A stretch of 64,000 nt of DNA from Leptospiraceae bacterium (GTDB lineage: Bacteria; Spirochaetota; Leptospiria; Leptospirales; Leptospiraceae), in the NCBI GenBank assembly GCA_022402465.1, contig JAKRSH010000034.1:1-64000 (forward strand). The letters run 5' to 3'. Shown piece after piece: positions 25,314-57,942 of the stretch. The position numbers and the translations under genes were made by a program. The notes under the pieces are model-generated. The model saw only the letters and a list, made by a program, of their open reading frames with translations, searched no databases and had not been told where the DNA came from. Position 1 is the first letter of the stretch. The number at the start of each line of letters is the position of its first letter.

Positions 25314-26399
25314 ATGGGTGAAGGTTCCCTATCACAAGACGAAATAGACGCCCTTTTACAAGGTGCGGAAGACAGTCCATTTGACATGGGAGGGGGTTCT
25401 GCCTCTTCTTCTGGATCTATGGCTGATTCCTTATCTCCCATAGATAGAGACATCATATCGGATATGTTAGGCCAAGCTTTCCAGACTGCGGGAAATGTGC
25501 TGGGAACCATACTTGCCAAAAATACTCGTTTCAACAATCCATCTACCGAATCTCGTAGTTCATCGGAAATTAGCCAAGAGCTAGGGAGTAAATCTGTTTG
25601 CTTGTATTCCCAGGTGCAGGGAATCTTTAATGGTAGAATCTCTATCATCATAGCCCAAGAGAATGCTGCAAAAATCGCAGGACTCATGATGGGTGGATCT
25701 GGACCAGCTGGTGCTATGGATATGGCACAATTACAGACTTTGAAGGATTGCCTTTCCCCCATGATGGGAACTGTTACAGCACAGATTGGTATGAAGCTAG
25801 GTGGATCTCTCTCTGGTTCCCCACCTGATATTGTTTTGGTGAATGCTCCCAATGATTTGCGATTGCCTGATGGTCAGGCCCTTGTTAAAACCCAATTTAG
25901 TCTCAATATTGATTCCATTGGATCATTTAAACTAAGTTATATTCTTTCTAGCGATAATGCCCAGTCTATTTTGGATATCTCCAAAAATGGAGCTGGTATG
26001 CAATCCAGCGGTGGTATGAATGTGCCTATGCAGGGTGGCGGCATGAACATGGGTGGTTTTGCAACAAACCAACCCCAGGTGGGAATCAAAGGAATTGGTT
26101 TTCCATCTCTTTCCACTGCAGGTGCGGCCTCAGGAAATACAAATCTCAATCTTTTGATGGACGTTCAGATGGCTCTTACGGTGGAGCTAGGAAGAACTAA
26201 AATGTATATTAAGGATATTCTCGGCCTAGGGGAAGGTTCTATTATCGAGTTGGATAAGCTGGCTGGTGAACCAGTAGATTTACTTGTTAATGGAAAGTTG
26301 ATAGCCAAAGGGGAAGTTGTGGTAATCGATGAGAACTTTGGTGTGCGGGTTACAGATATCGTTAGTCCTCAGGATAGAATTAAATCGGATAAAGGATAA
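25314..26399 (+). CDS. fliY: Flagellar switch protein FliY (FliN/CheC-like)
   Basis: Part of the cytoplasmic C-ring that sets rotation direction. The N-terminus LSQDEIDALLQG is the CheY-P docking peptide seen in FliM/FliY, residues 40-210 are CheC-like, a Gly/Met-rich linker follows, and the last 85 residues are a FliN SpoA domain (MALTVELGRTKMYIKDILGLGEGSIIELD). The CheC active sites seem eroded: the first reads TAGN where ExxN is expected, the second DCLS. GGAG lies 6 nt before the ATG. It is the first gene of the operon and overlaps fliO by one base (TAATG). Confidence 0.93.
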   Translation: MGEGSLSQDEIDALLQGAEDSPFDMGGGSASSSGSMADSLSPIDRDIISDMLGQAFQTAGNVLGTILAKNTRFNNPSTESRSSSEISQELGSKSVCLYSQVQGIFNGRISIIIAQENAAKIAGLMMGGSGPAGAMDMAQLQTLKDCLSPMMGTVTAQIGMKLGGSLSGSPPDIVLVNAPNDLRLPDGQALVKTQFSLNIDSIGSFKLSYILSSDNAQSILDISKNGAGMQSSGGMNVPMQGGGMNMGGFATNQPQVGIKGIGFPSLSTAGAASGNTNLNLLMDVQMALTVELGRTKMYIKDILGLGEGSIIELDKLAGEPVDLLVNGKLIAKGEVVVIDENFGVRVTDIVSPQDRIKSDKG

Positions 26400-27169
26400 T
26401 GAAGGCGGGAATTATTCCTATTGTAATCCTAGCGCTTACATGGGGATCACTATATTCTCAGGAAAAGCCCGAAGATCTAGATTCTCTTCTTCAGGAGGAG
26501 TTAGGTGTAACTCAAGCCAATACTTCCTCCAAAAGTAATACTAGTAAGGATTCTACGAATACCACATCCACTAAAGATCCCGCAACTGGTGCTGGTGGCA
26601 GTGATCCTAATGTTGATTTGATTCAGAATCGATACTCAGATTCAGAGGATTCCTCTTCTACTGCATGGCTTCTCATTAAAGTAATTTTAGTTTTTGGTGG
26701 TCTAACGGCTGTAATGATGTTTATCTTACGTGTTATGACCCGGACTAGGGATTCTAGGTTTCCTGTAAAAGGCGTCATGTCAGTTCTTTCCAGTCTTCCT
26801 ATTGCTCCTAACAAACAAATTCAAATTGTGGATGTTGCTGGTAAGCTTATCGTTTTAGGAGTGGCTGATTCTGGAGTGAATTATATAACAGAGATTACTT
26901 CCTTGGAAGATAAGAATCGAATTCTTAAATTGAAGCAAGAATTTGAACCAAGCCAAGATAATTTTATGGTTACTCTATTAGAGTCCTTAAAGGATCTTTC
27001 ACCCAAATCACTCACCAATCGCTTAGAAGGTAGTCAGGATGATTCCAAATACCTAGATGATTCTGAAATAGAAGCCTTAGAGCAGAAGCACAAACGATCC
27101 TTAGAAAAGCTTAAAGATAGCAACAAGGATCTTGGCATGGATCCAGGTTTTTCTGGAGGCAAGTTATGA
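26399..27169 (+). CDS. fliO: Flagellar export gate assembly protein FliO
   Basis: FliO helps assemble the FliP ring of the export gate. The protein has an N-terminal signal-like segment ending near LYSQ, a low-complexity Ser/Thr/Asp region to about residue 80, one membrane helix ([22 protein letters not shown]) and the characteristic cytoplasmic segment [28 protein letters not shown] charged C-terminal tail follows. 256 residues, longer than in enterics, as usual for spirochaetes. The start is coupled to fliY and the stop to fliP (ATGA). Confidence 0.9.
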
Positions 27170-28140
27170 GTGCAATACGAAACTTAGGATACCTTTTAAA
27201 AATCAGATTGGCACTTGTAAGTAAATTTCTTTCCTTTTTTTTAAGAAAATCAATGGGACATAATTCCGTTATGTTGAGCATTAAATCACAAGCAAGGTTG
27301 CGAGAACTGAATTTTCCATTTCCCAATATACGAGGTTTTATCTATCTTTTTTTGATTTTAGTCATCCTTAGCCCGGTTTTGGGAGCACTATTGGAAGGGA
27401 GCATCCTAGATCTTGGAGTGAATCTTCAGGCTCAATCTACATCCAACACAAGGATACCTATCCCCAATCTCAATTTTAATGTGAACGAGGCTAAGACACC
27501 AAGAGAGACCTCTCTTTCCTTGATGGTTCTATTCTTGGTAACCATTCTTTCTTTAGCCCCCGCTATTATAATGTCTGTTACTTCGTTTACAAAAATTGTA
27601 ATTGTCTTGGATTTTGTCAGAAGAGCTCTTTCTCTTCAGAATCTCCCACCTAACCAAGTGATGATGGGCCTTGCTCTTTTTATGACATTTTTTATCATGG
27701 CTCCAACTCTTGGTGAAATCAATCAAACAAGTCTTCAACCATTTATGGAAGGAAAAATTGATACCAACACTTTTTTTGATAAAACCATGGTTCCTCTGCG
27801 CGGTTTTATGATACGTCAAATTGGTGCAGCGGGAACCAAGGATGTTGCCTTGTTTTTGAAATTAGGCAAGGTGAAAAATGTAAAATCTTATGATGATGTA
27901 CCTTCTTATGTTATTGTTCCTGCATTTATGCTAAGTGAAATCAAGAAAGCATTCATTATAGGTATTTATATTTTTATTCCATTTATTGTAATCGACTTGG
28001 TGGTTGCTGCTTCCCTTCTTTCCATGGGATTGATGATGCTTCCGCCTGTGATGGTTAGCTTACCTTTTAAGATTATTTTGTTTATCCTGATAGATGGATG
28101 GAATCTGCTCGTCTACGAATTGGTTAGGAGTTATAAATGA
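27166..28140 (+). CDS. fliP: Flagellar export gate protein FliP
   Basis: FliP forms the core of the export channel with FliQ and FliR. The conserved body starts near residue 115 ([40 protein letters not shown], read in parts) and continues through [19 protein letters not shown] and the C-terminal helices with [13 protein letters not shown]. The coupled ATG gives 324 residues, about 80 more than most FliP; the extra N-terminal stretch includes a basic region before the signal-like helix at about 50-75. A later in-frame start is possible but the ATGA overlap favours 27166. Confidence 0.95.
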
Positions 28141-28400
28141 CCGAAGTTGATGTTATAACCTTAATTCGCGATGCCTTGATCATAACGATAAAAATTTCTT
28201 CCCCAATTTTAGTAACCGCTCTAGTTGTAGGATTGTTTATTGGAATTTTGCAGACAACAACCTCTATCCAAGAGCAGACTATTGCCTTTGTGCCTAAGCT
28301 TTTTGCAATCTTTGTTGTGATCATAGTGTTCGCGTCTTGGATGGTTAGAACTATGCTAGACTATACCAGAAATATTTTTTTTATGATAGAGAAATTTTGA
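28137..28400 (+). CDS. fliQ: Flagellar export gate protein FliQ
   Basis: An 87-residue protein with two membrane helices separated by [16 protein letters not shown], the hallmark loop of FliQ. It packs around the FliP-FliR core of the type III export gate. The ATG overlaps the fliP stop by 4 bases. Confidence 0.96.
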
Positions 28401-28407
28401 GAATTAA

Positions 28408-29187
28408 ATGGAATACTTTGTAAATAACTTTCAAGTCTTTATGCTGATGTTCGCTAGGCTATTAGGTTTATTTATGATTACACCTGTTTTCTCATCGGAA
28501 TCTATACCTGTAACTCTTAGGATGATACTTTCCTTTTTAATAACCATAATACTTTTTCCAGTTTCCTCTGCCTTTCTACCTAAGGTTCCACCTGATATGC
28601 TAACCTATGGACTCTTGGTACTATCAGAAATGATGATAGGTCTTTTGATAGGATTTATGGTTACTATATTTTTTGCAGCCTTTCAAATGGCTGGAGACTT
28701 CTTTAATGTTCAGTTGGGTTTTGCTTATACAGAAGTCCTGGATCCTATGACTCAAGTATCCTTGCCTGTAATTTCTTCCTTAAAGAACCTTATGGCAATA
28801 CTGGTTTTCTTATCTATGGGTGCTCATAGAATGATGATCAAAAGTCTTGCATTCTCTTTTGAAAAAATTCGTATCCTAAGTTTTACTCCAGAGACCAATC
28901 AAGGAATCTATAAGGCTATAGAAGGTGCAATTGGTGCTATGTTTGTTGTTGCATTTAAGATTAGTTTGCCTGTACTTGGGATCTTATTTCTTGTTACTAT
29001 AGCCGAGGCTTTAATGGGAAAGGCGGCACCTCAGTTGAATATACTTCAGTTAAGCTTTCCAATCAAAGTTTTGATCGGACTAATTGTACTGATCTCAATA
29101 ACATCTTTCATAGTTGCTCAGATGGAATCTGCATTTATGGTTTCCTTTGATAAAATAGATGAATTGTACAAAGGATGGCCGAATTGA
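28408..29187 (+). CDS. fliR: Flagellar export gate protein FliR
   Basis: A 259-residue membrane protein with about six helices; [14 protein letters not shown] at the start and [23 protein letters not shown] in the middle are characteristic of FliR. It completes the FliPQR helical pore. The start is 7 nt after fliQ and the end overlaps flhB by 13 bp. Confidence 0.95.
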
Positions 29188-30341
29188 GCTCGGTTCATAC
29201 ACAAGACTGGATATATCTTGGAAGTAATGAATGGTCTTTCATAGATGACTTTCGAATTAATCTTCAGTTGTTCGCAGCAGAAGATGAGGGTCGTACAGAA
29301 CCGCCTTCAGAACGAAAGAGAAGAGACGAAAGAGAAAAAGGAAATGTTCCTAAATCACCTGAACTTAGTTCGGCGGTTGTTTTACTGGCAGCTACTGTTC
29401 TACTGTATCTTATGGGTGAATTTTTTATTCGTAAATCAGCATTATTCATGAGAAAGTATCTTCACTTTGCCAGAGATCCAGGAGAATTTAATTCTGAAAG
29501 TTTTAGTCTTCTACTTAAGGATGCTTCCTGGGATATTTTTACTTTACTTGCTCCCTTATTAGGTGTTACTTTTGTGTTTGCTGTATTGGGAAATATTTTG
29601 CAAGTTGGTTTGCTTTTTGCACCAAGAGCAATGGAGTTTCGTTTCGAAAGATTAGTCCCTAATTTCAAAAGAGTTCTACCTACTAGACAAACCTTGTTCA
29701 ATTTAGGTAAATCTCTAATGAAGGTTGTTCTTATAGGATGGGTTAGTTATATTATTGTTTCTCAGGATTTTCTGAGAATTATGCTTACAGGTGATATGGG
29801 TATTCTGCAAGCATTGGAGTTAGTTTCATTCTCTGGATTTAAGATTTTTATTATAGTCGGAATAATTCTCTTAGCTATTGCGGTTGCTGATTTTTATTAC
29901 CAGAAATTTGAATTCGAAGAAAGTCTGAAGCAAACACCTAGTGAAGCCAAGCGTGAGATTAAAGAGCAAGTAGGGGATGGTGCCTTAATTGCTAGAAGAA
30001 GACAAATCATGAGAGATATTGTTAGCTCAAATATGCTACAAAATGTACCTAAAGCAGATGTTGTGATAACAAATCCTATCCATTTTGCGGTAGCACTTGC
30101 TTTTAACTCATCAGTGGACGCAGCTCCCAAGGTTATAGCCAAAGGTGAGGATCAACTTGCTTTGACAATCAAGGAAATTGCTAAAAAGAATAATGTTCCT
30201 ATGGTTGAAGATAGACTACTTGCGCAACAGTTGTATAAATTAGTTGAGGTAAACCAAGAAATTCCATTCAATCTTTACCAGGCTGTATCTATAGTTTTCG
30301 TTAACCTTCGAAAATACCAAACAATGGGAGGTAGAAGATAA
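29175..30341 (+). CDS. flhB: Flagellar export substrate-switch protein FlhB
   Basis: FlhB closes the gate and, after self-cleavage, switches export from rod/hook to filament substrates. Here the family start ([19 protein letters not shown]) is preceded by about 38 extra residues, four membrane helices follow, and the cytoplasmic domain carries the cleavage loop. That loop reads NPIH rather than the common NPTH; the Asn-Pro bond and His are retained. 388 residues. Translation overlaps the fliR end. Confidence 0.95.
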
Positions 30342-30343
30342 TT

Positions 30344-32470
30344 ATGGAAAAAAAACCTTGGTATACCAATTCAGATATTATCATTGGTGTTGGTGCTTTG
30401 GCAATTCTCATGATGTTAATTGTTCCTCTGCCTGGCTTTATCTTAGATCTTCTACTGATTGTTAGTATTGGAGTTGGAATTATTATTTTGCTAACATCCC
30501 TTAGTGTTGCTGAGGCTATGGATTTTTCTATATTTCCTACCTTACTATTGATTACTACTCTTTATAGACTCGCACTCAACGTATCAACAACTAGGCAAAT
30601 TCTCAGTAAGGGAGCAGCAGTAAACTCTCAAGTTATCGAAGCTTTTGGAACCTTTGTGGTAGGTGGTGAAGGTGGGCTAGGTAAGTATGTCGTCGGATTT
30701 ATTATCTTCATCATACTCATCATCGTTCAGATCGTAGTTATCACCAAAGGAGCAACCAGGATATCGGAAGTTGCAGCAAGATTTGCCTTGGACGGACTAC
30801 CTCAGAAACAAATGGGGATAGACATGGAGCAAAATTCAGGTGCCATCACTGAGCAGCAAGCCATGACCAAGCGGAAAAGATTAGAACAAGAAGTTAATTT
30901 TTATGGAACCATGGATGGAGCGAGTAAATTCGTACAAGGGGATGTAAGAGCTGGACTTATTATAACAGCTATTAATCTTTTGGGTGGAGTAATTATTGGA
31001 GTTTCCATTCGCGGTGAATCCTTTGCATCAGCGATAGAAACATATGGTAAATTTACGATCGGTGATGGACTTGTTTCACAAATTCCAGCTCTCTTGATCA
31101 CCACAGCAACAGGTCTTATTGTAACTCGTTCTAGTTCCATTCAATCCTTCACTGGAGAGTTTAAGAAACAGTTGTTTACCAATTCCAAAATTCTTTATAT
31201 AGTCGCAGCTGCCTTGGGACTTGCCGCACTTATTCCTGGTCTACCATTCTTTTCCCTATTGGTCTTAGGTGGATTTTTTGGATATCTTGGGTATTACATG
31301 GAAAAGGCAGCAAAGTTACAAGTTGAACTGATTGAGAAAGGTGAAGAAGCGAAAACTACCGAAAAGAAACCAGAAGACTACCTAGAAGAAATACGAACAG
31401 AATCTATAGTTGTTTCATTGGGTTTAAATTTATTGCCTCTTGCAGAAGTTAAAGATAGAGGCTTGCTGCTTTCTCAAATAGCTAATACACGTAAGAAATT
31501 TGCATCTGATTATGGTTTGGTGATTCCTCCGGTTCGAATTATGGATAATTTAGAGATCCCTCAAGATAATTATACTATTAAGATCAATGGTGTTGTTGTT
31601 GGAGAATCAGCGATCAAACCAGATAAATTAATGGCCTTGGATAATTTAAGACAAGTAGAAGATCCTATACCTGGTGATAAGTTTACTGAACCAACTTTTG
31701 GAATGCAGGCTCTTTGGATAGATCCTGATTTAAAGAGTGAGGCTGAAACAAAAGGATACACAGTTGTGGATCCTTCAACAGTCATTATCACACATTTGAA
31801 AGAATTGATCCTAACACATTCTTCTTCACTTTTGGGTAGAGAGGAAACTCAAAGTTTACTAGAACATGTTCGTAAGTCTAAACCAACTCTTATACAGGAA
31901 CTCGGCTATGAGAAAGAAGGTAGACTTGGAATTATACAACAGGTTTTGCAGAATATGCTAAGAGAAGGTCTTCCCATTCGAGGTTTGCCAGTAATCTTAG
32001 AATCAATCGCGAACAATATTTCCAAATCTACTGATCCGAATTATCTATCTGAATTAGCAAGACAGGCAATCTCTAGACAAATTGTAAATGAATATGTCCA
32101 AGCAGATGGTAAACTTTATGTGATAGGCGTGGATCCAAGGTTAACGGATCGCTTGTCTAAGAACCTTGTTGAAGATCCCTTAGAAGGAAAAGTTATAGCC
32201 ATAGGTGCTGATCTAAGACGTAAGATGATCGAATCTATACAAGCGGAATACAAGAAAGCTTTAGAAAATAACCGTTTCCCAATATTCATAATTGATAGAT
32301 ACATTCGTATGCCATTGTTTGGTTTTATTTCAAGAGAGTTACCGCCAAGGAATTTTGCGGTTCTTGCCATTCAAGAAATTCAAACATTCACGAATATAGA
32401 GCTAGTGAGTCAACTAAGCATTAGCCAAGCAGAAAAACAACAGGAGGAAGGCGCAGGAGTAGGCGCTTAG
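30344..32470 (+). CDS. flhA: Flagellar export protein FlhA
   Basis: A 708-residue export-gate subunit: about eight N-terminal membrane helices (to about residue 330), with the FHIPEP-type cytoplasmic loop represented by [22 protein letters not shown], and a large cytosolic domain forming the nonameric ring that docks chaperone-substrate complexes. It starts 2 nt after flhB and leads into flhF after 7 nt. Confidence 0.97.
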
Positions 32471-32477
32471 TAAATTT

Positions 32478-33902
32478 ATGGATTATGTAAAGATCAAAGG
32501 AAGAGACATTCAAGATTGTTTGATGCAAATGAAAATGAAATACGGTCCCGAAGCTCATGTATACGAACATAGAGTTTTAACAGAGGGTGGATTGTTTGGT
32601 ACAGGTCTTCTTGCGAACAAAATGTACGAAATTGATGTTGCCATTCCTGAAAAAGCATCCTCTAAAGAACGTGTTGAAAAGAAATTAAATGATTTAAGAG
32701 AACTACTCAAGAAAAAATCACAAGCGCCTTCAGCACCAAATTCTGTTAAGAAGAGTTTAGATAATTTACCTCAGTTTCAATCACGCAAACTTGTGACTGC
32801 AGAACCTTTGCAGTCTGTAAGAAATAGAGCGCATGCGAATGTAGATTTTAATTATGAAGAAGACCAAGAAGTCCAGGAATTACTTTCTTCAACATTAGAA
32901 GATATTTCCGATATTGCTCAAGAGGAAATACTTTTTGAAGAAATACAAAAATCCGATAAACTTCCAAATAAGCCACAACAATCAAAAGATATTTCTAATG
33001 AAATAGGTCTTTCCTTCCAAAAGGAAATGATTCATAGAGTGCCAGAAAGTAAGGATTTACTTTCCCCAGCCTTAGATAAGTTGAAAAATAAATTTATCAA
33101 TGAAGGAATGAGCCAGAGTTATGCGACAGAACTTATGGAAGAGGTAGCTCAACATCTTTCCCCAATGGAAAAAGGTCGAATTGCATCCGTTTGGGAAAAA
33201 GCAGCTCACCTTCTAGAGGATCGTATCAAGGTAGATTCTGATTTGCTTAGTGGGACTAAGAAGGGGAAGAGAAAAGTTGTCTTTATTATAGGACCAACGG
33301 GAAGCGGCAAAACCACTACGGTTGCCAAGCTTGCTGCAAAATATTTCCTTCACATGGGAAAATCGGTATCCTTATATACAACTGATAATTATCGAATTGC
33401 TGCAGTTGAACAATTGAAAAGATACGCAGATACTATGGATATACCCTTTTATTCCGTAAAAGATGTCCGCAAATTCCGTGAGGCATTGCTTAGAGATGGA
33501 TCAGAGCTAGTTCTCGTTGATACAGCAGGTTATAGCCATAAAGATAGAGAAACCTTGTATAAAATGAAGGAGTTCTATTCAGCTCTTGGTGAAAAGGATC
33601 AGCTTGAGAATATTTTGGTGATTTCATCTACAGTTTCTAGACAAAATGCCTTCGAGGTATCCAAGGCTTATGAAGAATTAATTTACAATCGCATCATTTT
33701 ATCAAAAATTGATGAAACAGATTATTTAGGTTCTTTCCTAGAACTTGCCGATACTAACCATAAGGAATTTGCATATTTTAGTGTGGGACAAGATGTTCCT
33801 TTCGATATAATTGCATCGAATAAAAAACTTCTTGCGGAATGTGTAGTATATCCTGAAAAAATGAAAGGGATGACGGGGGAAGAGTTTACCGCCAAAAACT
33901 GA
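32478..33902 (+). CDS. flhF: SRP-family GTPase FlhF
   Basis: FlhF sets where and how many flagella are built. The N-terminal basic domain (about 1-90) and a variable acidic linker precede the NG domain with Walker A GPTGSGKTTTVAKLAAKY, LYTTDNYRIAAVEQL and LVDTAGYSHKD. 474 residues. In spirochaetes the FlhF/FlhG pair governs polar placement of periplasmic flagella. Confidence 0.96.
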   Translation: MDYVKIKGRDIQDCLMQMKMKYGPEAHVYEHRVLTEGGLFGTGLLANKMYEIDVAIPEKASSKERVEKKLNDLRELLKKKSQAPSAPNSVKKSLDNLPQFQSRKLVTAEPLQSVRNRAHANVDFNYEEDQEVQELLSSTLEDISDIAQEEILFEEIQKSDKLPNKPQQSKDISNEIGLSFQKEMIHRVPESKDLLSPALDKLKNKFINEGMSQSYATELMEEVAQHLSPMEKGRIASVWEKAAHLLEDRIKVDSDLLSGTKKGKRKVVFIIGPTGSGKTTTVAKLAAKYFLHMGKSVSLYTTDNYRIAAVEQLKRYADTMDIPFYSVKDVRKFREALLRDGSELVLVDTAGYSHKDRETLYKMKEFYSALGEKDQLENILVISSTVSRQNAFEVSKAYEELIYNRIILSKIDETDYLGSFLELADTNHKEFAYFSVGQDVPFDIIASNKKLLAECVVYPEKMKGMTGEEFTAKN

Positions 33903-33933
33903 TCCTGTTCCCGAATACAAAGGAAGATAAATC

Positions 33934-34875
33934 ATGGATCAAGCCGCGAATCTTAGGAAACTGACGGAAGGTACAACAAATCTCAAATTAGTTCCGAATC
34001 AGGCACGACCTATGACAAAAATTATTGCAATTGCATCAGGAAAAGGAGGAGTTGGGAAATCAACTCTCTCAGTCAATCTTGCCATAGCTATTGCTAAAGC
34101 TGGGCATAAGGTTTTAATTTTTGATGGGGACTTAGGTCTTGCCAATATCAATGTCCTACTTGGTATCATTCCAAAATACAATCTCTACCATGTAGTAAAG
34201 GGTCATAAGAGTCTCAAAGATATTATCATTCAGACCCAGGATGGAGTGGATATTATTGCTGGTGCTAGTGGTTATTCCCAATTAGCCAATTTAAATGATA
34301 CACAAAGAAATAATCTAATCAAAGGTTTTGCAGATCTAGACAATTATGACTATATGATCATAGACACTGGAGCTGGAATCTCAAGCAACGTAATAGGTCT
34401 TGTAATGCCTGCTGATGAAGTCATTGTTGTGACCACTCCAGAACCAACGGCCATCACTGATTCCTATGGGTTGATCAAGTCTATAGTAAGCCAGACCAAA
34501 GATAAAAATCTCAAGATCATGGTGAACCGTGTAAGATCGGCTATCGAAGGCAAAAAGGTTGCAGACAGAGTAATAGATATCTCAGGTCAATTCTTAGAGG
34601 TTCAGGTTGAGAATCTTGGTTTTATTTTCCAAGATGAAGAAGTTGAGAAAAGTATCCGTGAGCAGAAACCATATATTACAAATAGTCCAAGATCCAAGGC
34701 AGCAGCTTGTTTAACAAGAATCACTCATACACTTTTGCAGACAGAAAATACGGATTCAGACACGGAAGGTCTTGCTGGATTTATCAAGAAATTTTTCAGC
34801 TTTGTAGATTACCGTGAAAAAGAACTGGAAGATAGAATGAATGAAGATGAAGATACTCCTACAGATAAAGGTTAA
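33934..34875 (+). CDS. flhG: MinD-like ATPase FlhG (FleN/YlxH)
   Basis: An antagonist of FlhF that limits flagellar number. The N-terminus DQAANLRKL is the FlhF GTPase-activating peptide. It is followed by the deviant Walker [18 protein letters not shown], switch [14 protein letters not shown] and [10 protein letters not shown] long C-terminal amphipathic region probably makes membrane contact. 313 residues, 31 bp after flhF. Confidence 0.95.
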
Positions 34876-49420: not shown

Positions 49421-51349
49421 CTAAAACTCTTTATCCCATCGCCCACTTAACACGGGAAAGCGAAAGCTAGTCTTAGGATCGAGTCCGTATTCGTCCAAAT
49501 GAAAAGATACAGCAAACCTCTCTCTCTTCCATTGAGAGATGCGAAATAATTGGAAATAGCGCTCAACCATAGTTTTCAATTCATTTCGAGAAAAAGTATC
49601 CCATTTCTGAGTTAATTCTCCAAGGATTTGTTCTTTGCTGTAACCTTGGTTGACAAAAGAAAACTCTATATCTTGTAAGATAGCATAAGGCATTAGATCT
49701 TTTTCATCTTCTTGTTCCTCTTCTAAGGGTTTAAGTTCTGCAGAAGGTTTTGTATGCAATAAGTCAGCTAAACTTTTATAAGCGGGGATTCTTGGATCTC
49801 CTGATTGGTTGATAAAATGAAGCCAGTCTAAAAGAAATTTCTTACTAACTCCCGCTATAGGGCAGATAGATCCAGAGCTATCCCCATCCATAGTTGTATA
49901 TCCAACAGAGGCTTCAGAACGATTTCCTGTGGAAAGTAATAAATGATTTTTGGTATTCGCAAGAAGCCATACCAAAGGAGATCTTCCCCTCGCTTGAATA
50001 TTTTGTAAGGCTAGCCCATCCTTTTTCCAATCTAGCTTGCGATCTATGGTCTGAGAGATTAAATCTACCATTCTTCCAACAACTTCATCGATGATGATAC
50101 TGTGGTGCTCTGCTCCTAGCTCCTTGGCAAGATTTTCAGCAATCTCTTGGGTTATAGAAGAATTATTTGCCGTCTTTTGGTAGATGGTTGTAAGTAAGGT
50201 ATTATCCAAGCCAAGCTCTGCTAGGGATGAATTGCCTCTTGCTTTTCTTACTTCGGATACCATTGCTGCAACCAAGATGGCAATAGCAGAACTGTCTGCA
50301 CCACCTGACAGGGATAAAGTGTAACCTTTCATGCCAGACTTTCGTAAATAATCAAATAGTCCAAGTATAAGTGCTGAAGTAAAGGCATGAAATTGATTCT
50401 CGCTTGGAAGTTTGTTGTATGCAATAGAAGCAGATGATTTTCCAAAGGGGGACTCAGGAATAGGTACAAGTCGTTTAAGAAATTGTTTATTTGTACTTCG
50501 TCGAAAGAACTTTGATCTGTCATGATCTATATTCTCTTTTAGAATGTTAGCAGTTGATATAGATGTATTTTCTAAGGGTAGAATTTTCCCTATACTTAAG
50601 ACCTTACCTGATTGAAGTATTAAATTTCCTCCATCATAAATGGCTCTTCCAGATTCATTGCCAATTAGATTGGCAAAGGCAAAAACATTCCCTTGGGTTC
50701 TTGAACTTTCTTGGAAAATTCTTGACCTGGTCTCATATTTTCCAAAGGCAAAATGGGATGCTCCAGGACATAAAATAATATCAGCACCTAACTCTGAATA
50801 TTCCTGGGACGGTCTATGCATGACCCAGGAGTCCTCACAAATTTCAAGTGCGATTTTGCAAGAATCCCAATCCAAGATAATATCACCTAGATAAATATCA
50901 GAATCTGTATAAGATTCAGGAAATAAATGATTTACTCGAACAGGCTCACCCAACCATTCTGTGAACCAACGCTTTTCATAATGAATTCCCGTGTTAGCCA
51001 AGTTCCTCTTTGCAACTAGCCCACGAACCTTTCCATGAGAAAGGATGGCACATGTATTGTATAAATATGGTGAGAAGAAAAATGGAAGTCCTACGACCAC
51101 CAAACGATTCTTAGTAAGAGGGAGTAAGTTCCCTATGCTTGTGATACATTTCTGCCAAACCCAAGGAAAGTAAAATGAATCCTCGCATCCATAACCGGAA
51201 AGAGAGAGCTCTGGAAATAAGATGATCTTTGATTGGTCTAAGTCTTTATTTTCTAAGACTTCCTTGTGGAGTGCCAAATTTCCTTCAAAATCTAGGGCTA
51301 TCGTATTGATAGAAACAGTGGAGAGTGTTATACTTTTGGATGCTTCCAT
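49421..51349 (-). CDS. nadE: Glutamine-dependent NAD+ synthetase
   Basis: Amidates nicotinate adenine dinucleotide, the final NAD step. The N-terminal nitrilase domain hydrolyses glutamine with Glu (FPELSLSGYGCED), Lys (VAKRNLAN) and Cys (LEICEDSW). The C-terminal synthetase has the PP-loop LSLSGGADSSAIA and NIQARGRSPLVWLLA, STGNRSEASVGY. 642 residues, the two-domain form. Its start overlaps waaA by 22 bp, and it ends the six-gene operon. Confidence 0.96.
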   Translation of the reverse strand: MEASKSITLSTVSINTIALDFEGNLALHKEVLENKDLDQSKIILFPELSLSGYGCEDSFYFPWVWQKCITSIGNLLPLTKNRLVVVGLPFFFSPYLYNTCAILSHGKVRGLVAKRNLANTGIHYEKRWFTEWLGEPVRVNHLFPESYTDSDIYLGDIILDWDSCKIALEICEDSWVMHRPSQEYSELGADIILCPGASHFAFGKYETRSRIFQESSRTQGNVFAFANLIGNESGRAIYDGGNLILQSGKVLSIGKILPLENTSISTANILKENIDHDRSKFFRRSTNKQFLKRLVPIPESPFGKSSASIAYNKLPSENQFHAFTSALILGLFDYLRKSGMKGYTLSLSGGADSSAIAILVAAMVSEVRKARGNSSLAELGLDNTLLTTIYQKTANNSSITQEIAENLAKELGAEHHSIIIDEVVGRMVDLISQTIDRKLDWKKDGLALQNIQARGRSPLVWLLANTKNHLLLSTGNRSEASVGYTTMDGDSSGSICPIAGVSKKFLLDWLHFINQSGDPRIPAYKSLADLLHTKPSAELKPLEEEQEDEKDLMPYAILQDIEFSFVNQGYSKEQILGELTQKWDTFSRNELKTMVERYFQLFRISQWKRERFAVSFHLDEYGLDPKTSFRFPVLSGRWDKEF

Positions 51350-52629
51350 ATCTCTTCGTAGATTCTCTGAGAGGCTCCTGTATTTGCTAGCACAAAGTTT
51401 TTGTTGCTTAATCGAATTTTACTAAAATCAAATTGGTTTAGAATTTTTTGTTCTAAGTCAATGAGAAGTTCCATCATGCTTGGATAGCGAAAGAGTCCAT
51501 GAAGTGACTCAAGTAATAATGCTTCTGAAGAATTTTCTATCTTCCTTCCAGTAAAGATTGGATTCCCAAAATAAGCTGGTTCAATCACATTATGAATACG
51601 GTGTTGAAAGCCACCTCCCACGTAGACAAGACTTGCATACTGGTAGGCATAGGCAAGTAAGCCTAGCTCATCCATTAGTTGGATTTCTGATTCTGGTTTG
51701 TTCTCTGAAAATCTGTTTAGACTCCAAGCACTAGATTGTAATTTTTCTTGGATGTAATCCAATCGCTCTGCCTTGATTTTATGAGGAAAGATCCAAAGTG
51801 AAATTCTACCCTTGAGTTTAGTATTGCTTAACCATTCTATGATCCCGAGTTCCGAATTAGGGTAGGTAGATGCAAAAACTAAATTCAACTTACCTTCCTG
51901 GAACCTTCGATTTTTCTTAGCCCAATCTTGGAACTGAAGATTGGGTTTTGTGTTTAGAATTCTTTGAACTACTGCATCGAATCTAGTGTCACCCAAAGTT
52001 TTCATTTGGCTTTTTTGCTTTGAACTTAGAACAGATAAGAAATCTTTCTCTAGGATACTATGAGCTGGATAAACGGCATCTAACCAAGAAAAGATGAGTT
52101 TGGTAAAATAAGAAAGCACTCCCTTATTGCGACTTGAAGCATCTCCTAGAGTAGCACATACAAGGTAGACTTGGCAATTGGATGATTTTGCAGAACGAAT
52201 CAACCAAGCCCAGGTGTCCCAAGCAAAGAGTATTAATTTCTTAGGACGAAATGTTCTTAAAAGCAAGTTATAAGAAAAGGGACCATCCAAGGGAAGAGGG
52301 TAGTGGTAATCGCAGGGAGAATCGACTAAGTTACGTTCTGTAACAGAGTCTGAAACCCACGTCAATAATAATGTGCAATCCTTTTCTCTTCGTTTGATTT
52401 CTCTAGCTAATGCTTTTGCTTGGTCCAGTTCTCCTACGCTTGCTCCATGCAACCAATACAAATTATTGTTAGGCACTTCGAGAGTTTTAATTTCTATATC
52501 AGCTCTAAGGCGTAATTCATGGAATCTTCTAGCTCTAGGCGAAAGAAAGATGGCAAGATAGAATAAGAATTGTATGAAGGGTGCAATGATTGTGTAGAAA
52601 ATAAATAACAAAAATCCAAAAACTTTCAT
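51328..52629 (-). CDS. waaA: Kdo (3-deoxy-D-manno-octulosonate) transferase
   Basis: Transfers Kdo from CMP-Kdo to lipid A in the inner membrane. An N-terminal membrane anchor precedes WLHGASVGELDQA with the catalytic Glu. The C-terminal GT-B half carries LVYVGGGFQHRIHNVIEPAYFG and the following GNPIFTGRKIENSS. The usual NARxS region reads divergently, so the identification rests on these motifs and a fitting length (433). Confidence 0.88.
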   Translation of the reverse strand: MKVFGFLLFIFYTIIAPFIQFLFYLAIFLSPRARRFHELRLRADIEIKTLEVPNNNLYWLHGASVGELDQAKALAREIKRREKDCTLLLTWVSDSVTERNLVDSPCDYHYPLPLDGPFSYNLLLRTFRPKKLILFAWDTWAWLIRSAKSSNCQVYLVCATLGDASSRNKGVLSYFTKLIFSWLDAVYPAHSILEKDFLSVLSSKQKSQMKTLGDTRFDAVVQRILNTKPNLQFQDWAKKNRRFQEGKLNLVFASTYPNSELGIIEWLSNTKLKGRISLWIFPHKIKAERLDYIQEKLQSSAWSLNRFSENKPESEIQLMDELGLLAYAYQYASLVYVGGGFQHRIHNVIEPAYFGNPIFTGRKIENSSEALLLESLHGLFRYPSMMELLIDLEQKILNQFDFSKIRLSNKNFVLANTGASQRIYEEIWKHPKV

Positions 52630-52674: not shown

Positions 52675-53283
52675 TCAATGCTTTTGTTTCATATGAGCTA
52701 TGATTTCTTTTTCCAATCTTTCATCTGCAATTTGAATTGGATAAGAACCTAATATTCTATAATCAGGTGTTGTAAGAAAATACCAGGTATTATGATCTAT
52801 TGTATAATTTAAGAGAGAATTCGGAAGATTTGAAACTTGGAAATGAACTCCGTATGCCTTAGTTAGATAGAGTAAATCATTTTCTCTTGGGTAAAGAACT
52901 TCTACATTCTTAGCGCTTTGGCCGAATAGTTTTTGTAATTTTGCTTTTGTATCTCGTGTGGGATCTAAGGATATGAAAATAAGACTCAGTTGTTTGGGAA
53001 AATTTTGCAAGGCCATTCTCTGCATCTTAAGAACTGCCTCCCAGTCCAAGTCGGAGGCAGAAAGTTGACCAAAGTAAATCAATTTATAATCTTCGTTCAG
53101 GCTCTCTAAGGTGATGGATTCTGCTTTGAGATTTTGTACTCTGAGCTTGAGTAATTCAGGCAAAGGATGGACTTCTTCAACTACAGTAGGACCATCCTTT
53201 TGAACCTTGCCTGTATAGAAGTATGCACTGAGACTTGCAATGAGAAAAACGGAGAGAGGGAGGATGATTCTATTCTTACCCAT
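52675..53283 (-). CDS. SCO1/SenC-like protein lacking the copper cysteines
   Basis: A 202-residue membrane-anchored thioredoxin-fold protein. SLIFISLDPTRDT and TIDHNTWYFLTTPD are SCO family landmarks, the latter with the copper-ligand His. The expected CPxxC after the first strand (FGYTxCPDxCP) reads FGQLSASDLDW, so both cysteines are gone. Copper delivery to cytochrome oxidase is therefore unlikely; a structural or peroxiredoxin-like role cannot be excluded. It is one base after map. Confidence 0.75.
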   Translation of the reverse strand: MGKNRIILPLSVFLIASLSAYFYTGKVQKDGPTVVEEVHPLPELLKLRVQNLKAESITLESLNEDYKLIYFGQLSASDLDWEAVLKMQRMALQNFPKQLSLIFISLDPTRDTKAKLQKLFGQSAKNVEVLYPRENDLLYLTKAYGVHFQVSNLPNSLLNYTIDHNTWYFLTTPDYRILGSYPIQIADERLEKEIIAHMKQKH

Positions 53284-53284
53284 A

Positions 53285-54043
53285 TTACTCAGGTAAGGTG
53301 AGGATTTCGTAGCCCTTATCAGTAACTAGTACAGTGTGCTCAAATTGCGCAGACCATTTTGCATCCTTAGTCGTCACAGTCCATTTATCTTCTTTGGAAA
53401 AGTTTACTTCATAGGTACCCAGATTTACCATGGGTTCTATAGTAAAAGTCATACCTGGTTCTAACTTGGCAAGTTTACGATTCATTTTGAAATGAGGGAC
53501 TTGTGGATCTTCATGGAAGGTTCGCCCAATCCCATGCCCCATAAGATCTCTAACTATACCATAGCCTAGGGGAGTTAGATAATCATCGATAGCATTCGAA
53601 ATATCGTTGATGCGATTTCCAGGTTTTACTTGCTCTATGCCCAACCACATGGATTTTTCTGTATCTTCTACAAGCTTCTTATGGATGGGATCTATATTTG
53701 TTCCAACAAAGAAAGTCTTGGATGTGTCTCCATGATAGCCATCTACAATGGGAGTAACATCTATGTTGATAATATCACCGTCTTTGAGTATATCTGTGGC
53801 TTTCGGAATTCCGTGGCATACCACGTGGTTTATAGATGTACAGATTGACTTGGGAAACCCCCTGTATCCCAAGGGGGCTGATTTATTGCCGTGTTTTTTT
53901 GTGAAATCTTCACAAAGGTTGTTTAGATCTAGAGTCGAAACTCCAGGTTTCACAAAATCAGAAATGTAAAGCAGTAGCTTGCTAGCAAATTTGCCAGCCT
54001 TGCGCATCTTATCGATTTCGGAACGGTTTTTTATATAAATCAA
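53285..54043 (-). CDS. map: Methionine aminopeptidase type I
   Basis: Removes N-terminal Met from nascent proteins. Metal ligands are visible: the Asp pair in NIDVTPIVDGYHGDTSKTF, His in MGHGIGRTFHEDP, Glu in FTIEPMVN and AQFEHTVLV. 252 residues, start MIYIKNRSEIDKMRKAGK. It lies 7 nt after the histone gene and 1 nt before the SCO1-like gene. Confidence 0.97.
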   Translation of the reverse strand: MIYIKNRSEIDKMRKAGKFASKLLLYISDFVKPGVSTLDLNNLCEDFTKKHGNKSAPLGYRGFPKSICTSINHVVCHGIPKATDILKDGDIINIDVTPIVDGYHGDTSKTFFVGTNIDPIHKKLVEDTEKSMWLGIEQVKPGNRINDISNAIDDYLTPLGYGIVRDLMGHGIGRTFHEDPQVPHFKMNRKLAKLEPGMTFTIEPMVNLGTYEVNFSKEDKWTVTTKDAKWSAQFEHTVLVTDKGYEILTLPE

Positions 54044-54050
54044 GTTTCTC

Positions 54051-54263
54051 TTAGAAATCGTAGGAACGAACGGTAGTTCTTTTATTGCTTTGTGTTCTTT
54101 CTATTGCTTCGTCTAGCATCTTGTAAATTCTTTCATTTAAGCCGTCTACAGCATCTGAAGAAGTCATACAGCCCTTTGATTTGATGTATGCTTTTACTTT
54201 GCTCGCGACTATTAAAGACTCACGACCTGTAGTTTCTGTTGATTCATTTGTTTCTTCTGACAT
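54051..54263 (-). CDS. Bacterial histone-fold protein
   Basis: A 70-residue protein: an acidic 12-residue tail, then a single histone fold with LIVASKVKAYIKSKGCMTSS, DAVDGLNERIYKMLDEAIERT and the family end NKRTTVRSYDF, whose RxTVxxxD matches the Bdellovibrio histone Bd0055 and the Leptospira histones as I recall them. Such proteins dimerise and coat or bend DNA. AGGAG lies about 6 nt before the ATG. It sits in an operon after the large coiled-coil gene (13 nt) and before map (7 nt). Confidence 0.88.
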   Translation of the reverse strand: MSEETNESTETTGRESLIVASKVKAYIKSKGCMTSSDAVDGLNERIYKMLDEAIERTQSNKRTTVRSYDF

Positions 54264-54276
54264 AAATACTCCTTTT

Positions 54277-57111
54277 TTATCTTACTTTGCGAGAGGCTAA
54301 AATGGTGTCTACCAAGGATTTCTCTATCCCTAGTTTATCTGAGATGGAATCGGGAGACCAATGGTGCTTCTCATATAGGCTCAAAATTGTATTTTTCTTC
54401 CTTTCTAGGATGGGATCTGCTCCGTTTGACTTAGAAGTCTTAGGATTTGGCATGCTTTGCATGCTATTTTGGACAACATCTAAAAAGGAAGACAATTTTT
54501 CGAACTTTTCATCTGCCTCAGCAAGTAAACTCTCCAATTCATCCTTGGAAACTTGGGTATCACTTCGCATTTCTTCTATTCTTTTTTGCAAAGTAAGTGC
54601 TTGCTTATGGCGTTCGCTTAAATCCCCAATGAGATTTTCGATTTTGTCAAAACGTGATTCAACGGTGAGAATATCCTTTTCTCTATCCATCAAATGTTTG
54701 GCTCTATCATCTGCTTTTCGTATGGTTTCACTCAGTTCGCGTTCTCTCGCTTCGATTACAGAGATTTCCCTGTCCAAATTTGATATGCGGTTTTGGATTT
54801 CTTCGGAAGTCTCAAGTTCGGTATCGAGATCTTTCTTCATCTCTCGTAGAACTTCAACAGAATTGAGATAGTTTTCTAAGAGTTCTTGATTTGCTTCCGT
54901 ACTAACAAGAGTTGATTTGAGTTCTTCTAAGACTCGCTCAGATCTTTCTACAGTTTCTTTGGATTCATCCAAGAAGCGCATTTCTTGTTTGGCAAGATCA
55001 ATATGATTGGTGAGATCACGAACTTCTTCTCTCACCGCTCCTAGACTTCCTGAAACAGAGCCAAGGATTTCTTCTTTGAGTTGAAGTGCCTCTTCGATTC
55101 CCTGATCAATATCTTTTTTAAAGCTTTCGAATTCTTCTTTGTTGTCACGGAAGGATTCTTCTAGATCTTTCTTTAGGCTTGCAATATGCTTATGAACTTT
55201 TTCTTCGATTTGACCTATGTGGAGGTTTCCTTTATCAACTAGCTTTGCAAGTTGTTTGCTGATTTTCGCATCAATAGTTTCATTGATCTTTTCAACTTTC
55301 AATTCTTGTCTACTAAAGAAATCATCGGCGGACTTTTTCAAGTGAAGGAATTTATCCGTTAATTCTTTTTGAGCTTGTTTGCTTTCTTCAGTCAGACTTC
55401 CTTCTTGGGCTTGTAGATAATTTTCAAGTCTTCGTCGAGAATCTTCGTATTCTTCTTTAAACTTACCAAGTAAATCCGCACCTTGAATATGGATGCCTTG
55501 CAATCTTTCGTTTAGAGAGTCTATGCTTTGTAATGCGGTTGTCTTATTTTTGGATATTTCTTCTTCCCAGAAATGCAACATGGATTCTATTTTGGATTCG
55601 GTTTTAGCAACCTCTGTCTGAAAGACAGATTCAAAACCATTGGATTTCTTTTCAGCTTCCTCAAGGATTTCTCTAGCTGTTTCGGTGAGTGCATCTTTGA
55701 GATCTCCAACATAGTGATCTACTCCACCCAATTTCTCTTCTATGATGGATTCAAGATTTTTCACCTTGTCTTCAATGATGGAAAAATCTATCTTCAACTT
55801 GTCCTCAAGGTCTTTCCTTAGCTGTGTTATGGATTCCTTTGCTTCTTTTTCACTTGTAATTCTAGTGGATTCCAAATCTTTATTAAAATTTTTCAATTCA
55901 CCAAGAGCTTCTTTTCGTATGCTCTCAGCCTCTAATTTTAATTCAGTGGAGATAGATTTAAAATCTTCAGCAAATCCGTCCATTTGTCGCATAAGTTCTG
56001 ATTTGCGAGTATCTGCCTGTTTCAGCAATTTGTTCTCAGCTTCAAGGTATTTTTCTTGGAAATCAGTAATAGTTCCATTCAAGGTCTCAGCTTGTCTTCT
56101 AGTTTCATTGAGAATCTCATCTCTTCGTGTCATGGTTTCTAAAGAGAGTCCTTCAATTTCACGTTTGATAGCATCGACTTCCATACGTATGCTTTCTAGG
56201 AATGATTCTTTGGACTGAGATGCTTGTTCAATCACTCTGTCATAGCGTTCTGAAAGTTTTTTCTCTAATTGGTTGAGCTTTTCTTCAACCTTGGTTTGAG
56301 CCTTAGAAGTCTTATCTTCCAGTCTTTCATCAAAGCGATCCACTTTCTCAGAGAGTATAGCGGTAGTATCTTCGAATTTACTGATTTTTAAATCAAGAAT
56401 GCTCTCTGCTTCTGAAATTCTTCCCATCACATCATCAATTTCTTTGCGAGCAATTTCAACTCTTCCAACTGTTTCTTGGACAAGCATCTCAGATTGCGAT
56501 TGCAATTTTGCTTTTGCAGAATTAGCAATCTCATCTAAGGTGAGATCAAGAGAATCAGATTTTTTTTCCATCAAGCCTTCTAGCTCTATGAGTTTGGTTG
56601 CGAGGGACCTAAGGATTTCATCCGATCTAAGATCTAATTTTTCTTGGAATCGGTCTAGTATAGAAGAAGACTCTTCTTTTAAGGAGTCCAAATCCTCTCG
56701 TAGAATTCCAACTTCTTGGCGTTGGTTTTCCACAATAACCAGTTCGTTTTGAAGAATTTCTGCCTCAGATCTAGCATCATGGGCAAGCTCAGAAATAGAA
56801 TTCATTTCCTGGCTTAGGGAAGTTAAGTAGTCACGGCTGGATTTAATTTGTTCGAAAAGAGTTTGGGATTCCCTGGAAAGCGATTGGATTTCTTCGCTGG
56901 TTTTCTTGGCATGTTTCAAGTGCAGGTCTATATCTATGCCTGCATCTTTTACAGATTGAATTTTGAGTAATGCTGTTTGGTGTATCTCTTCCGAGAGTTT
57001 CCCAGCGTATCTCTTGATCTGACTTAGCTTTGTGTTCGACTTGTCTAAGCGACGTAGTCCAATGGTTACAGCAATGCTTGCAAGAAAAGGTATAAGTATT
57101 TCAAGGCCCAT
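54277..57111 (-). CDS. SpiroCoCo-family giant coiled-coil protein
   Basis: A 944-residue protein: a short N-terminal hydrophobic segment (LEILIPFLASIAVTIGL), a nearly unbroken coiled coil to about residue 880 with few prolines, and a C-terminal module TILSLYEKHHWSPDSISDKLGIEKSLVDTIL that looks like a small helix-turn-helix. This layout matches the spirochaete coiled-coil (SpiroCoCo) family. It may build a filament or tether at the inner membrane. It is the first gene of the operon with the histone; the 13-bp dyad lies 6 bp before its start. Confidence 0.8.
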   Translation of the reverse strand: MGLEILIPFLASIAVTIGLRRLDKSNTKLSQIKRYAGKLSEEIHQTALLKIQSVKDAGIDIDLHLKHAKKTSEEIQSLSRESQTLFEQIKSSRDYLTSLSQEMNSISELAHDARSEAEILQNELVIVENQRQEVGILREDLDSLKEESSSILDRFQEKLDLRSDEILRSLATKLIELEGLMEKKSDSLDLTLDEIANSAKAKLQSQSEMLVQETVGRVEIARKEIDDVMGRISEAESILDLKISKFEDTTAILSEKVDRFDERLEDKTSKAQTKVEEKLNQLEKKLSERYDRVIEQASQSKESFLESIRMEVDAIKREIEGLSLETMTRRDEILNETRRQAETLNGTITDFQEKYLEAENKLLKQADTRKSELMRQMDGFAEDFKSISTELKLEAESIRKEALGELKNFNKDLESTRITSEKEAKESITQLRKDLEDKLKIDFSIIEDKVKNLESIIEEKLGGVDHYVGDLKDALTETAREILEEAEKKSNGFESVFQTEVAKTESKIESMLHFWEEEISKNKTTALQSIDSLNERLQGIHIQGADLLGKFKEEYEDSRRRLENYLQAQEGSLTEESKQAQKELTDKFLHLKKSADDFFSRQELKVEKINETIDAKISKQLAKLVDKGNLHIGQIEEKVHKHIASLKKDLEESFRDNKEEFESFKKDIDQGIEEALQLKEEILGSVSGSLGAVREEVRDLTNHIDLAKQEMRFLDESKETVERSERVLEELKSTLVSTEANQELLENYLNSVEVLREMKKDLDTELETSEEIQNRISNLDREISVIEARERELSETIRKADDRAKHLMDREKDILTVESRFDKIENLIGDLSERHKQALTLQKRIEEMRSDTQVSKDELESLLAEADEKFEKLSSFLDVVQNSMQSMPNPKTSKSNGADPILERKKNTILSLYEKHHWSPDSISDKLGIEKSLVDTILASRKVR

Positions 57112-57186: not shown

Positions 57187-57942
57187 ATGAAACAGCTGGA
57201 ACCCTATTCCTTATTTGCCGAAATCTATGATCATTCTATGAGGTATGTTCCTTATAAGGATTGGTCAGATTATATATTGAAGAGAAGCATGCATTATACC
57301 AAGCAATTTCCGGAAGCAGTTCTGGATATGGGTTGTGGGACGGGTAGGCTTTTGTATTTTATGGAAAAAAATAGAAAGCAAGCTGGTAAAACCAAAAAAC
57401 CATGGTTGGGAGTGGATCTTTCGGAGGCCATGATTGAGGAAGCAAAGAAAATTTCTTCCAAAATCCAATGGATGCAAGCAGATATTAGGGATTTCTGTTC
57501 AAAAGAAGCCTTTGATTTGGTAATTTCCACTCATACTACAATCAATTATTTTGAAAATCCAGGGACTCTCATTGCTAAGGCGGCAGAGCATCTACCTAAA
57601 AATGGAATTTTTTTCTTGGATTTTACCTCCGAAATGAATTTGATTCGAAATTTTGATCGCAAAAAGATCCAAGAAACCAAGCAGAATCTTCTTCTAGAAT
57701 GGGAAAGCTCCTTTGATCCCAAATCCAAATTGATTCAGGTGCACTTGAATTTCTTTCATTCCAAAACCAAGCAAGCCATAGGGCGTGAGGCACATCCTCA
57801 GTTTTTTCATACACCTAAGTCTCTGGAAAAAATCTTAAAAGAAAATGGTTTTCGAATTTTGGAAAAGGGAGGAGACTATGATCTATTCACAAAATTTGAG
57901 GAAGCAGATATGTGTCATATGCTCTGCCAGAAAGTGAAATAG
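57187..57942 (+). CDS. Class I SAM-dependent methyltransferase
   Basis: 251 residues. Motif I is VLDMGCGTGRLLYFM, the acidic ribose-binding loop is GVDLSEAMIEEA, motif IV is FDLVISTHTTINYF. The opening YSLFAEIYDHSM is common to small-molecule methyltransferases of the UbiE/YodH type. The substrate is unknown. It precedes the ABC system by 14 nt and may be co-transcribed. Confidence 0.9.
   Translation: MKQLEPYSLFAEIYDHSMRYVPYKDWSDYILKRSMHYTKQFPEAVLDMGCGTGRLLYFMEKNRKQAGKTKKPWLGVDLSEAMIEEAKKISSKIQWMQADIRDFCSKEAFDLVISTHTTINYFENPGTLIAKAAEHLPKNGIFFLDFTSEMNLIRNFDRKKIQETKQNLLLEWESSFDPKSKLIQVHLNFFHSKTKQAIGREAHPQFFHTPKSLEKILKENGFRILEKGGDYDLFTKFEEADMCHMLCQKVK

Follow-up and report, generated by a model that had tools for sequence, protein, structure and literature searches.

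Does a bacterial histone whose gene adjoins that of a giant coiled-coil protein act together with it? The question is raised by a locus in the window, the whole 64,000-nucleotide stretch analysed here (positions 1 to 64,000 of contig JAKRSH010000034.1, Leptospiraceae bacterium assembly GCA_022402465.1), for which a preliminary description proposed that the coiled-coil protein, with a membrane-like N-terminus and an HTH-like C-terminus, could tether histone-bound DNA to the envelope. ORF calls place three genes on the minus strand in the order 944-aa coiled-coil protein, 70-aa histone and 252-aa map, with gaps of 13 bp and 7 bp, in agreement with the coordinates, lengths and spacing of that description (Table 1). 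The layout is operon-like as claimed, and the same-strand run continues beyond map through SCO1-like, Kdo transferase and NAD synthase genes to 49421. Such a tight arrangement may give co-transcription of the histone and coiled-coil genes in the window genome. No promoter site was predicted between these two genes on their strand, but the scan is uninformative, as its total falls below that of shuffled sequences. The 252-aa ORF was rightly read as map, and encodes a type I methionine aminopeptidase; a second paralogue (G000:C35:40616-41353) is 33% identical to it, and two methionine aminopeptidases are also found in four genomes of the sister genus.

Table 1. Features of the histone locus and its surroundings, with positions in the window
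Feature	Position	Strand	Basis
FtF alpha3 histone, HLp type, 70 aa, 13-residue N-terminal tail	54051..54263	-	68% identity to HLp
SpiroCoCo-family coiled-coil protein, 944 aa	54277..57111	-	NF047514 145.9 bits; NF047515 114.1 bits
SpiroCoCo N-terminal membrane anchor, residues 5-19, then RR	57055..57099	-	hydropathy; kept in 14 homologues
SpiroCoCo C-terminal three-helix HTH-like tail, divergent DUF6115/DUF2802 type	54280..54426	-	AlphaFold2, Foldseek
map, type I methionine aminopeptidase, 252 aa, TTG start	53285..54043	-	TIGR00500 323 bits (cut-off 171)
SCO1/SenC-like protein, next after map	52675..53283	-	PF02630 48.2 bits
Kdo transferase, part of same-strand run	51328..52629	-	PF04413 92.6 bits
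Glutamine-dependent NAD synthase, part of same-strand run	49421..51349	-	PF02540, PF00795
Divergent methyltransferase	57187..57942	+	PF13489
FlhF GTPase; possible, inferred partner of a FipA-like tail	32478..33902	+	TIGR03499 188.5 bits (cut-off 174)

The smaller of the two proteins belongs to a known family. HLp of Leptospira perolatii (PDB 9qt0-9qt2) is a tetrameric FtF histone of solved structure, around which about 60 bp of DNA is wrapped (PMC12701072), and the histone of L. interrogans ranks among the most abundant proteins, shows nucleoid enrichment, and resisted deletion (PMC10627809, PMC12701072). A phmmer search aligned the window histone with HLp (PDB 9qt0) over residues 11-70 at 68% identity and E 1.6e-23, so the ORF is not a chance one, and a Shine-Dalgarno-like AAGGAG stands directly before its ATG. 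Six of the seven listed tetramer/RD-clamp residues are identical (R49, S52, N53, R55, D62 and F63 of HLp are R56, S59, N60, R62, D69 and F70 here), the exception being the T61 position, which is occupied by a tyrosine (Y68). The claim of a histone gene thus stands: on its sequence, the 70-aa protein is a Leptospira-type FtF histone, a fresh member of an already described family. It also shares with HLp its position before map, and differs in having a longer, acidic N-terminal tail as well as the tyrosine; furthermore, its genome encodes an HU-family protein, whereas L. perolatii and L. interrogans are without HU (PMC12701072). By analogy with HLp, the protein would form a tetramer that wraps DNA, and serve as a general nucleoid protein.

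A whole-genome search matched this locus only, indicating a single-copy histone gene. The Pfam model PF00808 missed the window's own histone and was therefore not used for judging absence. Close single-domain FtF relatives, at about 50-68% identity, are found in many Planctomycetota and a few other metagenome-assembled genomes (L058-L126), while no close relative was found on plasmids. The HU/IHF-family protein of the window genome has 102 aa (G000:C21:162256-162519, L173:1474-1782; PF00216, 83.8 bits), and an HU-family match is also present in most of the histone-bearing relatives.

The larger neighbour has been given another name in print. In many Leptospira species hlp adjoins genes for an ‘SMC’, MAP and a DUF350 protein, and cooperation between HLp and SMC was proposed in December 2025 (PMC12701072); the histone neighbourhood is therefore already published, but with a partner name that is wrong or at least doubtful. 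The 944-aa protein of the window exceeds the cut-off of the SpiroCoCo N-domain model (NF047514; 145.9 bits, cut-off 75) and falls just below that of the C-domain model (NF047515; 114.1 bits against 125, E 7e-33), which is exceeded in the close homologues L157 and L161. With its N-domain, membrane anchor, coiled coil and HTH-like tail it resembles other members of the SpiroCoCo family, differing in its C-domain score and in a diverged tail motif, the latter as in other Leptospirae. A search of a literature library found no paper on this family.

That the histone's neighbour is instead an SMC-type condensin acting with the histone, as the published proposal has it, is highly improbable. The protein does share a long coiled coil with SMC, and its weak, partial match to the SMC model TIGR02168, confined to the coil, is the likely origin of the database label; however, this match reaches 30.8 bits against a cut-off of 567, a sequence scan found neither a Walker A nor an LSGG signature motif, and the N-terminus carries a membrane anchor. 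A genuine SMC scoring 761.8 bits, over the cut-off, is encoded with its neighbours on another contig (C17) of the same genome. For the neighbour in the window genome, the missing ATPase motifs refute an SMC identity. Judging from gene order, the ‘SMC’ reported beside the Leptospira histone is probably also SpiroCoCo. Gene order and the window genome together indicate that the conserved neighbour of the Leptospira histone is probably not SMC, and the proposed histone-SMC module thereby loses its basis.

If SpiroCoCo served the histone, the two genes might be expected to travel together across spirochaete genomes, a check that the preliminary description named, but they do not. A search of 120 Spirochaetota genomes (E 1e-8) recovered SpiroCoCo in 104, and the gene is kept in relatives in which no histone is detectable. 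Among 30 genomes of the order, the histone is present in 25, SpiroCoCo in 28 and both in 23, with the genes side by side in only four of the 23: the window genome and three of its sister genus. Four of seven close relatives are without the histone and keep SpiroCoCo. In these same-family genomes (G001-G004, two of them 99% complete) neither an 11-row profile nor an HBb-type bacterial histone query found a histone, SpiroCoCo retains the same tail, and map lies at another location with no histone beside it; G003 is one of these, and its SpiroCoCo shares 72% identity with the SpiroCoCos of congeners that carry a histone. Searches for each of the two genes in seven genomes of the same class (G030-G035 and G037) found SpiroCoCo in all and no histone.

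Non-adjacency in related genomes, which the preliminary description named as refuting its proposal, holds outside Leptospira and three genomes of the sister genus: adjacency is reported across many Leptospira species, where the neighbour holds the place of SpiroCoCo (PMC12701072), and is present in the three sister-genus genomes, but not elsewhere. The genome collection contains no Leptospira species, and synteny in that genus is taken from the published work; its retention across so many species could mean real coupling there. In the sister genus (L049-L051), SpiroCoCo and the histone lie about 500 bp apart, with an opposite-strand ORF of 71-77 aa, conserved in all three genomes, in the interval, and a terminator-like hairpin follows SpiroCoCo in two of the three. 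The histone there most likely shares a unit with map, separate from that of SpiroCoCo. This antisense ORF (MDTTK..., in UBA2033-type metagenome-assembled genomes) was not recognised as a member of any family (L049:7523-7753, L050:7482-7715, L051:7490-7705). In the sister family the histone lies apart from SpiroCoCo, with a divergent GalE-like epimerase gene upstream, and cupin and HAD hydrolase genes downstream (L047:6891-9235, L048, L053, L055 and others). Within the order, the gene that most often stays beside SpiroCoCo is the divergent methyltransferase (L157, L158, L163, L166, L167). Taken together, the arrangement of histone and SpiroCoCo is probably a lineage-specific gene order, rather than a sign of a conserved histone-tether complex.

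The architecture of SpiroCoCo bears out the membrane-like N-terminus of the preliminary description. A single hydrophobic stretch, residues 5-19 (ILIPFLASIAVTIGL), reaches a maximum hydropathy of 2.43, beyond residue 40 the value never rises above 0.83, and all SpiroCoCo homologues read have such a stretch at the N-terminus, with basic residues after it. From this we infer an N-out, C-in orientation, so that the protein would be an inner-membrane-anchored coiled-coil rod, distributed throughout the spirochaetes and unrelated to the histone. The coil repeats at about 3.63 residues in its middle but at about 3.45 nearer the C-terminus, a two-part pattern kept in five homologues; the first part may be straight or right-handed and the second left-handed.

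The HTH-like C-terminus also held up, as a prediction. AlphaFold2 models the last ~45 residues as three helices (mean pLDDT 85.8, tail core about 92-95), and Foldseek gives the HTH of DeoR as the best PDB match (TM 0.81, rmsd 1.4), with the nearest solved folds being the HTH domains of DeoR, LsrR and sigma region 4 (TM about 0.7-0.81). The Foldseek E-values exceed 0.1, the domain being tiny, and the probability and TM scores were used only to assign an HTH fold. These 45 residues are kept across both the order and the phylum. Six of seven distant SpiroCoCo tails exceed the DUF6115 cut-off, and two reach 32.2 and 32.3 bits for DUF2802 (cut-off 33.5, E about 1e-7), whereas the window tail gives 13.4 bits for DUF6115, and no DUF2802 match in a Pfam profile search. 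HTH folds usually bind DNA. For the SpiroCoCo tail such binding is doubtful, given its relation to DUF6115/DUF2802 and a recognition helix that, in motif-bearing tails, is often acidic (GEVELILE). The relation of the family's tail to a protein-docking domain suggests docking rather than DNA binding.

These properties bear directly on the proposed tether, in which the HTH tail of SpiroCoCo would anchor histone-wrapped DNA to the inner membrane, with the operon ensuring co-production of both proteins. The membrane anchor and HTH-like tail that it invokes are both present, the genes are 13 bp apart in the window, and their synteny extends across many Leptospira; in addition, according to the citing text of PMC2680258, a Leptospira coiled-coil protein named Scc, which may be a different protein, binds DNA and forms filaments. 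Nevertheless, SpiroCoCo is retained with its tail in genomes in which no histone is detectable, the genes are unlinked elsewhere, the tail is related to DUF6115/DUF2802, and the pI of the whole protein is 5.0. A functional link between histone and SpiroCoCo is not supported, and the tether, possible as an idea, appears improbable.

A more promising lead than the tether is a spirochaete-wide family of membrane-anchored coiled-coil proteins whose tail is related to the domain with which FipA docks FlhF. FipA is a small membrane protein that includes a coiled region, and its DUF2802 domain binds the flagellar GTPase FlhF; of its invariant residues G110, E126 and L129, the glycine and leucine are needed for this binding and the glutamate is not (PMC11620751). 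It occurs only together with FlhF and FlhG, and its authors report no FipA in spirochaetes (PMC11620751). By comparison with the FipA of polar-flagellated gammaproteobacteria, SpiroCoCo has the same order of parts (a short N-terminus, a membrane helix, a coiled region and a DUF2802-like C-terminal domain), and distant SpiroCoCo tails match at the family level, whereas FipA is about 163 aa long and its coil is short, and the window tail is without the three invariant residues.

The resemblance raises the further reading that SpiroCoCo is the spirochaete counterpart of FipA, its tail recruiting FlhF to the pole and helping to place or assemble the periplasmic flagella. Besides the order of parts and the DUF2802 scores of two tails, this reading is supported by the FipA-type G, E and L at spacings of 16 and 19 in the tails of eight of 35 spirochaete families, as exemplified by G69, E85 and L88 of L196 where the FipA positions are expected; five further families have the G and E plus another large hydrophobic residue. 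The window genome also holds the company in which FipA is found, an FlhF over the cut-off with a MinD-type ATPase (probable FlhG) beside it, as seen in this one genome. Both are encoded in the window about 20 kb from SpiroCoCo, a distance that is not evidence of a link, and SpiroCoCo is not gene-linked to flhF. The motif, moreover, is lost in the Leptospirae branch, the window included, where the three positions are occupied by H, L and T, and the window SpiroCoCo is therefore not classifiable as FipA-like on sequence. A glycine at the FipA G position is also common in HTH domains, which counts against the identification, as does the reported absence of FipA from the phylum. Co-occurrence with flagella offers no discrimination, as FlhA is present in all 120 genomes sampled. 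We consider this reading rather unlikely. The flagellar genes of the window form an export cluster at 26399-34875 comprising FliO, FlhB, FlhA, FlhF and the MinD-type ATPase.

A broader version, quite unlikely in our estimate, makes SpiroCoCo a giant membrane-anchored scaffold whose divergent FipA-type (DUF2802/DUF6115) tail positions FlhF and the periplasmic flagella, and which in the Leptospira lineage has come to be encoded in the same operon as the main chromatin protein. If true, its operon placement in that lineage would tie the organisation of the envelope and pole to nucleoid production. SpiroCoCo would in any case gain a testable hypothesis, that of a FipA-like docking tail, in a phylum reported to be without FipA and yet using FlhF and FlhG.

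The interpretation that we favour is the joint one of an FtF histone, an unrelated anchored SpiroCoCo rod with a docking tail, and a lineage-specific gene order, which as a whole we hold to be probable, though well short of secure. Here the HTH-like tail would reach into the cytoplasm and most likely dock a protein partner, for which the best guess is FlhF or another polar or flagellar component. Docking carries two caveats, namely that the FlhF link is weakest in the window copy, with its marginal DUF6115 score and altered residues, and that the window tail is basic (pI 9.6), in a fold that usually binds DNA; the tails of homologues range from pI 4.8 to 9.7. In one genus of the phylum, the open frames of SpiroCoCo extend in several genomes to about 7,100 to 9,100 codons (at G099:C1:108491, G148:C1:211492 and G111:C1:1318805), which is very long for a bacterial coiled-coil protein.
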